Source: Acidobacteriota bacterium (GTDB lineage: Bacteria > Acidobacteriota > Terriglobia > UBA7540). Taken from it: 36,800 nucleotides of DNA. The stretch is taken from positions 1-36,800 of the forward strand of contig PLSX01000062.1 in assembly GCA_003165315.1 (NCBI GenBank). Direction: 5' to 3'. The notes beneath the pieces are model-generated. The model saw nothing but the letters and a program-made list of their open reading frames with translations. It made no database searches and had not been told where the DNA came from. Positions 4,372 through 35,690 of this stretch are shown one piece after another. Positions within the stretch are counted from its first letter, which is position 1, and the number at the start of each line of letters is the position of its first letter. A program made the position numbers and the translations under genes.

Positions 4372-4496
4372 GCTAGTGTAAGGTCCACGAAATAAATGGA
4401 CACTGTTTGCGGCGTAGCGCCGGGCTTTAGCCCGGCATGTGCCGCCCTAAAGGGCGGCGCCACATTGTCCAGCCAATTACTGGACACTACACTAGC
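4372..4496. mobile_element. MITE-like element with imperfect 34-bp terminal inverted repeats
   Basis: A 125-bp non-coding element. The left end (4372-4405) and the reverse complement of the right end (4463-4496) both begin GCTAGTGTA and agree at about 25 of 34 positions, including GTCCA and TGGACA blocks. A family B double hairpin (4414-4463) fills the middle. There is no room for a transposase, so it would be mobilised in trans if at all. AGCT occurs just outside both ends but overlaps the repeat, so a target duplication cannot be claimed. The rest of the 576-bp gap between the kinase and the peptidase shows nothing else I can name apart from the promoter at 4700-4726. Confidence 0.55.
4414..4463. 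repeat. Double-hairpin repeat, family B, copy 1
   Basis: Exactly 50 bp: GTAGCGCCGGGC-TTTA-GCCCGGC, a short ATGT joint, then GCCGCCC-TAAA-GGGCGGCGCCAC. It matches the copy at 32117-32166 in length, joint and end sequences, while the stem bases differ in compensating pairs (CCGGGC/GCCCGG here, CTGACC/GGTCAG there). Confidence 0.8.
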
Positions 4497-4764: not shown

Positions 4765-6795
4765 ATGCGATTTCTGCGTTTTGGTTTGGCAATGCTTTTC
4801 TGCGCTTCCTCGCTTTTGGCTCAAAACAAGCCCCTGCACGGGATCGACATCAACGACCTCAATCGCGGAGTGAGTCCTTGCCAGGACTTTTATGAATTTG
4901 CCAACGGCAACTGGCGGGCGCACAATCCCATACCGCCTTCGATGATGATATGGAGCAAACGCTGGGCGGCGGGCGAGTCCACCAAGGAGGTGTTGCACGG
5001 CATCCTCGAGGACGCTGCGGCTCATTCCTCCAGTGCCCCGCCGAAGTCCACGGACCGCCTGATTGGCGACTATTACGGCGCTTGCATGGACGAGAAGCAA
5101 ATTGATGCCCAGGGCATCAAGGCGGTCCAGCGGGAACTTGACCTCATCCGCTCGATTGGCTCGGTTGCGGATCTGCAGTCTGTCATCGCTCGCTTGCACC
5201 AGGAAGCTGTATTTGCGCCATTCTATTTTGGGTCGATGCAGGATCCTCACAACCCGCAGCAAGTCATCGCCGATGCCGGCGCCAGCGGCCTTGGGCTTCC
5301 TGACCGGGACTACTACTTCAAAGACGATGTTAAGTCGAAAGAAACGCGGCAAAAGTACGTGGAACACGTTGCCGCAATGTTTGTGTTGGCTGGGTCAGGG
5401 AAGGCGGCCGCGGCAGCGTCGGCACAAGTTGTAATGCGGATGGAAACCTCCCTGGCCGGCGCTTCACTGACCAATGTGGAGTTGCGCGATCCCCATGCCA
5501 CGGACCACAAAATGAAACTGGATGAGGTGCAGAAGCTCACCCCCGATTTTAGGTGGGCAGGGTATTTCCAGGCATTAAACGTTGATCCCCGCGTCGCGTT
5601 TAACGTTGACCAACCCAAATTCATGCAAGAGTTTCAGCGGCAATTGCGGCAAACCTTCCTGGCTGATTGGAAAACCTATTTGACGTGGCAGTTGCTGTTG
5701 ACGGCGGCTCCGGCGCTTTCCACGCCCTTCGTCCAGGAAGATTTCGCATTTAATCAGCACTACTTGCAAGGCACCAAAGAGATGAAGCCGCGCTGGAAGC
5801 GGTGTGTGGAATCGACGGACGCAAATCTGGGCGAGGCTTTGGGGAAAAAGTACGTCGAAAAAACATTCTCACCGGAAGCCAAGGCGCGCATGCAAGAGAT
5901 GGTGAAGAACATTTTGCTGGCGCTGCATGACGACATCCTGATGCTCACCTGGATGAGCGACGCAACCAAACAGAAGGCCCTGGAAAAACTTTCCACGTTC
6001 AACCCCAAAGTTGGTTATCCGGACAAATGGAAGGATTACAGCAGCGTAGAAATCACCCGGCGAGCTTATTGGAACGACGTGGTGGAGGCGCGGCGTTTTG
6101 CCGTCCGCGATGACGCACAACAGATCGGCAAGCCGGTGGACCGCCTGCGGTGGGGCATGACCACGCCCACTTCCAACGCTTATTACAATCCACAGCTGAA
6201 TGAGATCGTGTTCCCGGCGGGGATTTTGTTGCCGCCGATGTTTGATGTGAATGCCACGGATGCGGTCAACTACGGTGGCATCGGCCCGGTAATCGGGCAT
6301 GAAATCTCGCATGGTTTTGACGATCAAGGCGCCCAGTATGACAGCACCGGGGAACTGAAGAACTGGTGGACTCCCGCCGACTACAAGGAATTCCAGAAAC
6401 ATGCGCAGTGTGTCGTCGACCAGTTTTCCGGCTACACCGTGGAGGGCGGGCTGCACGAAAACGGCAAATTGGTGCTGGGCGAGAGCATCGGCGACCTGGG
6501 TGGCGTAAAGCTTGCCTATCTCGCGTTCCAGAAATCGATGCAAGGCAAGCCCCGCCCGCCCGACCAGGACGGCTTCACGCCGGAACAACAGTTCTTTATC
6601 TCCTGGGGACAATCGCGCGGAGATGAAATTCGCCCCGATGCGCAACGCCAGTTTGTGCTCACCAATCCGCATCCGGTCAGCAAATACCGGGTCATTGGTC
6701 CCCTCTGTAATATGCCGGAATTCCATCAGGCGTTTGCTTGCAAGGCCGGTGATGCCATGGTGCGTCCGGATAATCAGCGATGCGCGGTCTGGTGA
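4765..6795 (+). CDS. Secreted M13 family (neprilysin-like) zinc endopeptidase
   Basis: A 676-residue metallopeptidase of the neprilysin/PepO family, which cleaves small peptides. A signal peptide occupies residues 1-19 (ends LLAQ), so it acts outside the cytoplasm. The N-terminal M13 domain begins with the typical PCQDFYEFANGNW. The catalytic domain has SNAYYNPQLNEIVFPAGIL, the zinc motif HEISH at 512-516 (His512, Glu513, His516), and the third ligand Glu573 with Asp577 in GESIGDLGG, where most relatives have ENxADxGG. The ending CAVW fits the C-terminal CxVW of the family. Length is normal (about 670-700). A strong GGAGG ribosome binding site precedes the ATG. It stands alone as a transcription unit, convergent with the next gene across a 22-bp palindrome. 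Confidence 0.96.
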   Translation: MRFLRFGLAMLFCASSLLAQNKPLHGIDINDLNRGVSPCQDFYEFANGNWRAHNPIPPSMMIWSKRWAAGESTKEVLHGILEDAAAHSSSAPPKSTDRLIGDYYGACMDEKQIDAQGIKAVQRELDLIRSIGSVADLQSVIARLHQEAVFAPFYFGSMQDPHNPQQVIADAGASGLGLPDRDYYFKDDVKSKETRQKYVEHVAAMFVLAGSGKAAAAASAQVVMRMETSLAGASLTNVELRDPHATDHKMKLDEVQKLTPDFRWAGYFQALNVDPRVAFNVDQPKFMQEFQRQLRQTFLADWKTYLTWQLLLTAAPALSTPFVQEDFAFNQHYLQGTKEMKPRWKRCVESTDANLGEALGKKYVEKTFSPEAKARMQEMVKNILLALHDDILMLTWMSDATKQKALEKLSTFNPKVGYPDKWKDYSSVEITRRAYWNDVVEARRFAVRDDAQQIGKPVDRLRWGMTTPTSNAYYNPQLNEIVFPAGILLPPMFDVNATDAVNYGGIGPVIGHEISHGFDDQGAQYDSTGELKNWWTPADYKEFQKHAQCVVDQFSGYTVEGGLHENGKLVLGESIGDLGGVKLAYLAFQKSMQGKPRPPDQDGFTPEQQFFISWGQSRGDEIRPDAQRQFVLTNPHPVSKYRVIGPLCNMPEFHQAFACKAGDAMVRPDNQRCAVW

Positions 6796-30060: not shown

Positions 30061-30104
30061 TTCAGCGGTACGCCTGATTCATTTCCGGGCAAGGGGAGAG
30101 AACC

Positions 30105-30139
30105 GCAAAGTAATCCGGCTCGGAGCCGAATAACTTTGC
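30105..30139. repeat. Palindromic repeat, family A, copy 3
   Basis: The arms GCAAAGTAATCCGGCTC and GAGCCGAATAACTTTGC pair with two mismatches around one base. The core CGGCTC/GAGCCG and TTATTCGG/CCGAATAA are those of the copy at 963-991, nearly 29 kb away, with a different outer sequence (GCAAAG for GAG). Confidence 0.75.
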
Positions 30140-30190
30140 GCTACCTTTTCTCGCGCACTCCGCTTTACAATCGATCTCTCCAGCTGTTAC

Positions 30191-31064: not shown

Positions 31065-31949
31065 TTAAGGGTAGATCTTCCGGAGATCGCGAAGAAATCC
31101 CCAGGCAGTCCACCAGAACAAGGCACAATAGACGAATACAAGCAGGAATGTTAAGGCCAGGAATAGAAAGACACCCCCAAACGATTCCCAATAGGAGTGG
31201 TAAGGGCCTTGCTTTGAAAACAGAACGACGGCCCCCCCGCAGACCAAGAGGGCTGCTAAAGAACAGGCCGATCGAGTTCTCCATGATTCGAACTGGGCTC
31301 TGGCGTCTTCCTTCAATGCTACGATTTCATCCCTTGTAGGGCTATCATCAAGACCCAGAATTGATTTTTCGTCGCTCGTCCCCATCAGGCTAGGATCTGC
31401 GCTGGCTGATTCCTCTGTACATTTCGGATCGCGACGAAATTTTCTAAAACTCGCCCAGACAAGGAAGAGTCCCAGAAGTATCACGAAAATTCTGCTGAAG
31501 CTTGACGTGGTATTCAGCACGTCTTCCTGCTTGCCATTGGACTCATAGAACTTAGCCTGAATGAGCTCCCCCGTTTCTCCTCGGTAGCGCACTTTGATGT
31601 GTTGCCCATGTTTCATGCTCGGACTGAAATCAGACGTGTGTATGGAGATATCGCCACCTTGAGTCGTATGGATCTGCACGTCGGCTTTGTAGCGCCTGCT
31701 ATCGGAGTCACGCACGTGAAATGATGTAATGGTTCCCTCAAATTCGAACATGGGGAGGCTCGCATCAGAAAGGGAGATCAGAAGGGACGAGAAGCATAAC
31801 CAAAGACTGACGGCAAGCGACGCAATCAGGTAAGCCTTGCCCTTGCGCGGGCCATAGCTTTCAGTGGCAGCGAGGAACCCGTACCTCGCCACGAGCAGGA
31901 CAGCCACTACAGTCTCGATTAGGAAAAGACGCTGATAGGCAAAGTGCAT
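31065..31949 (-). CDS. DUF3592-like multi-span membrane protein
   Basis: A 294-residue membrane protein. About five hydrophobic segments are visible (9-27, 39-60, 155-172, 227-245, 255-285). The soluble part between the second and third, beginning FEFEGTITSFHVRDSDSRRY and ending GQHIKVRYRGETGELIQAKFY, resembles the DUF3592 beta domain. DUF3592 proteins have no established role. The start overlaps the 3' end of the repeat-invaded frame upstream by 89 bp, so one of the two boundaries is wrong; the overlap lies in an otherwise unremarkable C-terminal extension of the upstream frame. AGG lies about 10 bases before the ATG. Confidence 0.7.
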   Translation of the reverse strand: MHFAYQRLFLIETVVAVLLVARYGFLAATESYGPRKGKAYLIASLAVSLWLCFSSLLISLSDASLPMFEFEGTITSFHVRDSDSRRYKADVQIHTTQGGDISIHTSDFSPSMKHGQHIKVRYRGETGELIQAKFYESNGKQEDVLNTTSSFSRIFVILLGLFLVWASFRKFRRDPKCTEESASADPSLMGTSDEKSILGLDDSPTRDEIVALKEDARAQFESWRTRSACSLAALLVCGGAVVLFSKQGPYHSYWESFGGVFLFLALTFLLVFVYCALFWWTAWGFLRDLRKIYP

Positions 31950-32589
31950 TTGCTATAACCTGCGATGACAATACGATGGGCCTTTTTTCGTATGAAAGCA
32001 AGAGTTGCGCGGACCTCTGCTGTGTGAGGTCCGCGGGTTCTCGCGCTCCCAGCAGGGCGAAAACCTGCACCTGGTTGATGGGCTTCCTGGCGCTCGCGGG
32101 CTCGGACGCGGCTGTTGTAGCGCTGACCTTGAGGTCAGCATGTGCCGACCTCAAGGTCGGCGCTACGTTCCTTGCCGGGCTCAACGCCGGCCCTACGGCG
32201 GCGCGGAGGGCGTTAATAAATGCCTCGCTCGCGCCTGCCGCTTTGAGGGTTTGGATAAATTCATCCGTCGGGGCGAAATCAATTCTGCGCTGTTCGATGA
32301 GCTTCGCGCCGGACTCGTCTCCGAATCCGTCGCGCACCATATTGCTGACCTGCTCACGGGTGAAGGGCTTTGCCGGGGTTGCGGTTGTAGAGCCGACCTT
32401 GAGGTCGGCATGCCGTAGCGGCGGCTTTACGCCGCCACTGGTCCATCCCCTGACGGATAAACTCGCCGTTACTTCAGCAGGTGCCAACCTAAAGGTCGGC
32501 GCTACCAATCTCGGTTGCGCCGAGGCAGGCAGGGTAACTACGAGGGGCATCGCCAATATGAAAAAAGTCAGCGTTTTGGGGAATCTCAT
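31861..32589 (-). CDS. Exported protein with helical repeat domain, invaded by family B repeats
   Basis: A 242-residue frame starting with a signal peptide (KTLTFFILAMPLVVTLPASAQ). A ~55-residue helical module, FTREQVSNMVRDGFGDESG...RRIDFAPTDEFIQTLKAAGASEAFINALRAA (about 76-132), resembles a domain common in Acidobacteriota proteins. A partial second copy (INQVQVFALLGAREP) follows. The stretches between these, residues about 28-70 and 137-160, are translated family B palindromes, giving VAPTFRLAPAEV, RHADLKVGSTTA and VAPTLRSAHADLKVSATTA, always in the same frame. The last ~40 residues fit no pattern and overlap the next gene by 89 bp, so the 3' end may be frameshifted or truncated. The gene may be decaying, or the linkers may tolerate the inserts. 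Confidence 0.6.
   Translation of the reverse strand: MRFPKTLTFFILAMPLVVTLPASAQPRLVAPTFRLAPAEVTASLSVRGWTSGGVKPPLRHADLKVGSTTATPAKPFTREQVSNMVRDGFGDESGAKLIEQRRIDFAPTDEFIQTLKAAGASEAFINALRAAVGPALSPARNVAPTLRSAHADLKVSATTAASEPASARKPINQVQVFALLGAREPADLTQQRSAQLLLSYEKRPIVLSSQVIANALCLSASFPNRDCSGCPARGEVRVPRCH
32117..32166. repeat. Double-hairpin repeat, family B, copy 2
   Basis: 50 bp, GTAGCGCTGACC-TTGA-GGTCAGC, ATGT, GCCGACC-TCAA-GGTCGGCGCTAC. It is within the linker of the exported protein above and encodes APTLRSAHADLKV on the minus strand. It equals the 4414 copy in length and layout. Confidence 0.85.
32387..32437. repeat. Double-hairpin repeat, family B, copy 3 (variant)
   Basis: Two stems, GCCGACC-TTGA-GGTCGGC and GGCGGC-TTTA-CGCCGCC type, within a 51-bp span, inside the same gene's N-terminal linker. 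The second stem differs from other copies but still pairs. Confidence 0.75.
32481..32505. repeat. Half of a family B repeat
   Basis: GTGCCAACCTAAAGGTCGGC followed by GCTAC matches only the right half of the 50-bp element, with one unpaired position (A opposite C). It is translated as VAPTFRLAPA near the signal peptide. Looks like a degraded or partial copy. Confidence 0.7.
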
Positions 32590-35581: not shown

Positions 35582-35608
35582 TTGGCACTCTACGCCTGAG
35601 AGTGCTAA
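35582..35608. promoter_or_regulatory. CIRCE operator 1 (HrcA site)
   Basis: TTGGCACTC, 9 bases, GAGTGCTAA. Differs by one base from the canonical CIRCE (TTAGCACTC). It lies upstream of the groESL promoter. Confidence 0.95.
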
Positions 35609-35636
35609 TTTGTTGATTTCAGGCAAAATCTAGTTC

Positions 35637-35665
35637 TTGACAGCTGGAGTAGGAAAGACTACATT
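35637..35665 (+). promoter_or_regulatory. groESL promoter
   Basis: TTGACA (35637-35642), 17 bases, TACATT (35660-35665). The -10 overlaps the start of CIRCE 2, so HrcA bound there would block polymerase. The leader to groES is about 170 bases and contains a stable hairpin at 35750-35770. Confidence 0.85.
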
Positions 35666-35690
35666 AGCACTCGCAACGGTTGAGTGCCAA
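35664..35690. promoter_or_regulatory. CIRCE operator 2 (HrcA site)
   Basis: TTAGCACTC, 9 bases, GAGTGCCAA. It has one base different from the canonical in the right arm. It overlaps the -10 box and covers the likely transcription start. Confidence 0.95.

Follow-up and report, generated by a model that had tools for sequence, protein, structure and literature searches.

Short GTAG-tagged palindromes of the REP type lie within proteins of uncultured soil-type Acidobacteriota, including the single-copy enzymes PrmC and MtnA, and are read there almost always in one codon register. The stretch of DNA that gave rise to this observation (hereafter the window) is 36,800 nucleotides long, and a preliminary description of it had held that mobile palindromes lie in frame within protein-coding genes and are limited to linkers, a view that has been borne out. 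It is likely that the palindromes have been spread by a REP-associated tyrosine transposase (RAYT), that the copies surviving within genes have been filtered by reading frame and by the tolerance of protein loops, and that the peptide which results is tolerated and not used.

Palindromes in an exported protein of the window

The host reading frame, P0001, occupies 31861..32589 and, like all its features given below, is on the reverse strand; it would encode an exported single-module protein of 242 aa, a truncated paralogue of a large module and TPR family. It starts with an ATG and a signal peptide (MRFPKTLTFFILAMPLVVTLPASAQ, 32515..32589), recognised from its sequence and from paralogues with the same type of N-terminus, is open from end to end and includes helical module 1 (KPFTREQV...INALR, 32200..32370). 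The palindromic elements, signal peptide and helical module reported for this ORF in the preliminary description are all present, and the peptides VAPTLRSAHADLKVSAT, RHADLKVGSTTA and VAPTFRLAPAEV are all read in one frame of it.

The linker between modules 1 and 2 contains a perfect 50-bp head-to-head REP dimer (32117..32166), which on the coding strand consists of two 23-nt hairpins, GTAGCGCCGACCTTGAGGTCGGC-ACAT-GCTGACCTCAAGGTCAGCGCTAC, is read as VAPTLRSAHADLKVSAT and folds with an energy of -42.5 kcal/mol (z -9.4). A half REP, GTAGGGCCGGCGTTGAGCCCGGC (VGPALSPA), which had been overlooked, lies at 32174..32196, and the same insertion point in paralogue C244 is occupied by a 50-bp dimer. The linker between the signal peptide and module 1 contains a nested GTAG-REP composite of 119 nt (32387..32505) that folds as a single closed structure with its outer arms paired (z -7.7). 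Those arms, GTAGCGCCGACCTTTAGGTTGGC at 32483..32505, read GTA-GCG-CCG (VAPTFRLA), and GCCGACCTCAAGGTCGGCTCTAC at 32387..32409 (ADLKVGST), had been counted separately in an earlier tally of two full elements and one half, and belong to one and the same composite. Its spacer contains an inner dimer, GTAACGGCGAGTTTATCC...GGCGGCGTAAAGCCGCCGCTAC, of which the right arm GGCGGCGTAAAGCCGCCGCTAC (GGVKPPLR) is at 32415..32436 and the left arm, GTAACGGCGAGTTTATCCGTC, at approximately 32452..32472, is decayed in the window and intact in the homologous nested arrays of loci L081 (2104-2210) and L082.

A second 50-bp dimer of the window is intergenic (4414..4463, forward strand) and lies within a MITE-like repeat (4372-4496) with the ends GCTAGTGTA...TACACTAGC; other genomic copies of this repeat have, in the same place, a different single palindrome of 32 bp (L078) or 8 nt only (L096, near 3129). 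An Rfam scan of the window gave no match. The window also contains three copies of a different palindromic repeat of the AGTTATTCGGCTCCGAGCCGAATAACT type (943-1095 and 30074-30156), degenerate short tandem repeats of CCTTTAWCC, accompanied by inverted copies, immediately upstream of P0001 (32684-32834) and two CIRCE-like inverted repeats (35582-35609 and 35663-35690; TTGGCACTC-N9-GAGTGCTAA and its inverse), the last of which suggest HrcA-type heat-shock control nearby.

Family, copy number and transposase

The identity of the element family, its copy number and its association with a RAYT gene are direct observations. The elements are GTAG-tagged REP sequences, mostly REPIN-like 50-bp head-to-head dimers, in which the GTAG tetranucleotide adjoins a perfect short palindrome. 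The hairpin pattern, with up to 2 mismatches allowed, was matched 108 times in the 6.19-Mb genome and not once by a reversed-pattern control, and GTAG-tagged hairpins numbered 373 as against 11-48 for control tags in loci that had been sampled because of their REPs. The hairpin was found in 35 of the 39 genomes of the family, and 50-bp dimers numbered 12 in the source genome, which is 7.3% contaminated, 38 in G012 and 30 in G036. An exact match to the dimer occurs in 49 stretches of a collection of 84,980 species, from which near-identical records may be left out, and all of these are from Acidobacteriota/Terriglobia MAGs. Linkers in the paralogous family of P0001 are variable and rich in A and P, and it might be supposed on that ground that the palindromes are merely chance low-complexity sequence of no mobile origin; such a supposition is scarcely credible given the zero control matches, the fold z-scores of -7 to -9 for the window palindromes and the presence of the same dimer at 119 places with unrelated flanks.

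A RAYT of 196 aa is encoded at 6129-6716 (reverse strand) of locus L060, scores 97.9 bits against NF047646, for which the cut-off is 80, and has GTAG dimers on both sides. The dimers on its flanks are built on GGGCT/GCCCT stems with longer spacers, those of the window on GACCT stems, and the latter may therefore not have been moved by this particular RAYT. A composite element of about 130 bp, bounded at either end by GTAG hairpins and containing long palindromes in its interior, occurs in many copies at intergenic loci of G000 (e.g. L049 2011-2140); its identification with the 119-bp composite of the window was dropped, as the middles differ.

Codon phase of copies within genes

Gene calls on the MAG contigs were made with a home-made codon model trained on long ORFs, and the coding state was called on either side of each dimer with the repeat itself unused. 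The family yielded 119 non-redundant 50-bp dimers, of which 54 are intergenic and 35 have coding sequence on one side; a further 15 are intragenic, flanked on either side by one and the same open frame, in 4 the frame is likewise shared but has a stop, where the gene ends, and 11 fall into none of these classes. Every one of the 15 open intragenic dimers begins on a codon boundary (phase 0), with GTA in 14 cases and ATA in the remaining one, a decayed copy. The phase 0 reading is GTA GCG ... and yields a VAPGFSPARADLKVGAT-like peptide.

An important consideration is the extent to which the element dictates its own phase. The three phases are open in 236, 115 and 1 of 238 strand-copies respectively (99%, 48% and <1%), intergenic copies included, which gives 0.67 as the share to be expected for phase 0. 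Stop-like triplets had been reported in the other phases and this is correct, one phase nearly always containing TAG and another being open in about half of the copies. The residual bias, 15/15 against the expected 0.67, has a p value of about 0.0025. Stop codons thus account for most of the phase bias and the excess beyond them is modest. It had been suggested earlier that the phase may be selected; since the stop codons of the element itself largely fix it, selection on the peptide can add at most a modest contribution. A stem-independent scan for GTAG-tagged hairpins in genes gave 20 in phase 0, 1 in phase 1 and none in phase 2, figures that overlap the set of 15 dimers, include a few likely chance hairpins and have control tags too few for a good comparison. 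Copies within genes are not, then, scattered over the three phases, 15/15 dimers and 20/21 hairpins in the stem-independent scan being in one phase. An apparent phase 1 case, L178, was rejected because it looks like the end of a sigma-factor gene followed by the next gene, with the stop in the repeat, and isolated weak matches to the hairpin within coding genes of L053, L079, L099 and L100, with poor stems or tags, were discarded as chance.

Host genes and their orthologues

Intragenic dimers were found in genes for PrmC, MtnA, maltokinase, HsdR, a family B DNA polymerase (PolB), a DEAH-box helicase, two Type ISP restriction enzymes, a Mu-type portal and Ser/Thr kinases. The single phase, the presence or absence of the insert among orthologues and its position between conserved blocks are all observed. 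For MtnA and PrmC about 30 orthologues each were compared, of which a single one has the dimer peptide at any given site, and the inserts of both enzymes sit between conserved blocks. MtnA has VAPGFSPAGAALKGGAT in G024 alone among 30 aligned family members; at the same codon G010 has another GTAG...CTAC palindrome, 71 nt long and likewise in frame, and most other aligned members have no insert of any kind there. The PrmC of G027 has a dimer between its N-terminal domain and the SAM motif that is absent from the other aligned orthologues, and its gene (L237 873-2183, reverse strand) contains three GTAG...CTAC palindromic inserts with different stems, all of them codon-aligned on GTA. A 50-bp dimer lies near the C-terminus of PrmC in G024, and the corresponding place in G027 is taken by a palindrome whose stems differ. 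The net insertion is +57 in PrmC and +33 to +39 in MtnA, all multiples of three, and this variation indicates that flanking bases have been gained or lost. Among the loci compared there was no clean empty site within a species, the comparisons being with diverged orthologues and MITE variants.

Two other repeats were seen in similar positions. Within an RND transporter gene (L224 2-3226, reverse strand) a member of a second palindromic family (EAVAAVSDRQTAVGTPQLQM), whose hairpin has 33 matches in the loci retrieved, is inserted in frame, and the PrmC of G023 (L344) has a linker with an inserted peptide, CHSERSEESRYSAQGRL, apparently from another interspersed repeat read in frame.

The preferred reading of these observations is as follows. 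A RAYT/TnpA-REP would spread REP dimers through the Terriglobia lineage, presumably including the transposase found here, and the dimers would land at many places, the majority persisting between genes. Survival within a gene would require a net insertion that is a multiple of three, a codon-aligned register (GTA GCG ...), which never presents TAG and with few exceptions is open on either strand, and a site within a flexible loop or linker; insertions that were out of frame or disrupted a protein core would be removed by selection. The added peptide would be translated and effectively neutral. Given that nearly every surviving copy is in one register, the insertions seem not to destroy proteins but to add to them a harmless peptide resembling a linker.

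It could also be asked whether the peptide is of use, the element having evolved to be translatable, or having been domesticated by the host as a linker, with selection on its sequence keeping the one phase. The near-universal openness of phase 0, even in intergenic copies, the confinement of all 15 open intragenic dimers to that phase though about half of the copies are open in phase 1 too, and the richness of the peptides in A, P, G and S are what such a reading would predict. It is nevertheless improbable, as openness results from a small set of stem sequences, MtnA and PrmC orthologues manage without the insert, and the stems at one site vary freely between species. Rather less improbable, though still unlikely, is that the REP dimer itself has evolved towards translatability in this lineage and acts as a mobile, protein-compatible linker cassette, since its register is open in about 99% of copies on both strands and stems are exchanged in place with the hairpin and the frame kept.

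P0001 and its paralogues

P0001 is a member of a large paralogous family, and Pfam and NCBIfam scans assigned it to no family. The REP array is absent in paralogues C116 and C182. A nested array in the signal-peptide linker is common to P0001, C233 and the G004 orthologue C365, with different outer stems, and C244 has a longer array together with a 50-bp dimer at the linker between modules 1 and 2. Paralogues and orthologues thus do not all share the linker, some being without it and others having a different one. The modules had been described as intact, which is true of module 1; module 2 (KPINQVQVFALLG, 32047..32085) breaks off after NQVQVFALLG, cut by truncation and not by a REP, and its end and all downstream parts, the TPR part included, have been lost. 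The C-terminal tail (31861..32046) contains a palindrome (32009-32034) and overlaps the start of the ORF at 31065-31949 (reverse strand). P0001 is a truncated paralogue in whose two linkers several REPs have built up, one nested inside another.

The truncation makes it a real, if lesser, possibility that P0001 is a dead or dying pseudogene, in which the REPs are ordinary extragenic palindromes and their shared frame is a leftover or a coincidence. The final 60 or so residues, which overlap the next ORF, resemble nothing in the paralogues; C244, a sister paralogue with a similar array, is frame-broken, with one break at a C7 run; and the codon model, which indicates coding in one frame over 31950-32409, gives no coding call over the signal-peptide region. 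Against this, the ORF has kept its start, its signal peptide and an open frame throughout, and dN/dS for module 1 is 0.10-0.33 against paralogues, mostly 0.1-0.2, from which it follows that this module was or is under constraint. Linker indels among the open paralogues, in comparison with C233 and G004, are also multiples of three. P0001 may be expressed today; the general phenomenon is independent of it, as in-frame copies also occur in intact housekeeping genes elsewhere, and it is RAYT-spread REPs filtered by frame and loop tolerance that we continue to favour.

Comparison with known systems

The many natural pairs of proteins with and without an insert offer tests of the tolerance of proteins to a selfish peptide, of REP movement and of stem change at a fixed site. 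Selfish palindromes within proteins were once thought to be special to Rickettsia and Wolbachia. They were later reported for GTAG REPs of several bacteria by Di Nocera et al. in 2013 (PMC3733652), with 24 published families of a GTAG-tagged superfamily that includes intragenic REPs, most of these in Opitutus terrae. Intragenic GTAG REPs being already known from that publication, the use of a single phase and the exchange of stems are detail added here.

The Rickettsia palindromic elements had been named as a precedent. The resemblance to RPE-1 to RPE-7 and to the protein-coding palindromes of Wolbachia lies in in-frame insertion into unrelated genes at surface loops, in the way one locus may hold different groups of elements from species to species and in stem exchange, which recalls RPE-4/6/7 (PMC3767692). 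It is nonetheless very improbable that the elements belong to the RPE family proper. RPEs are some 100-150 bp long and, according to PMC3733652, RPE-4 and RPE-6 belong to a CGTC superfamily, without a known transposase, whereas the elements here are GTAG-tagged and RAYT-associated. As in REPINs and their RAYT/TnpA-REP (PMC3116915, PMC8266576), the mobile unit would consist of two inverted REPs, and the 23-nt REP with its perfect 8-bp stem resembles the group 3 REP of S. maltophilia (PMC8266576); unlike REPINs, a notable share of copies is in genes, and mobility in the Terriglobia lineage is presumed. The enterobacterial RU/ERIC repeats (PMC2759123) are also small, non-autonomous, sometimes intragenic and able to contribute peptides, but they are MITE-like units of 103-168 bp without a GTAG hairpin dimer.

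The closest precedent is thus the GTAG REPs of PMC3733652, with which the elements share the GTAG terminus, an 8-bp stem and 2-nt loop, high copy number, head-to-head dimers, a RAYT gene flanked by REPs (REPtron) and a minority of copies in ORFs that add 20-30 aa, TAG sometimes terminating the gene. The accessible text of that paper contains no discussion of codon phase, and the literature as far as accessible yielded no published account of single-phase GTAG dimers, of genic copies in Terriglobia with insert-free orthologues or of stem exchange at coding sites. The present elements differ from the published ones, so far as these are described there, in their Acidobacteriota/Terriglobia host and in a 50-bp dimer with a 4-nt spacer, and extend them by the single codon phase, the presence and absence among orthologues, the nested arrays and the exchange of stems at one site.
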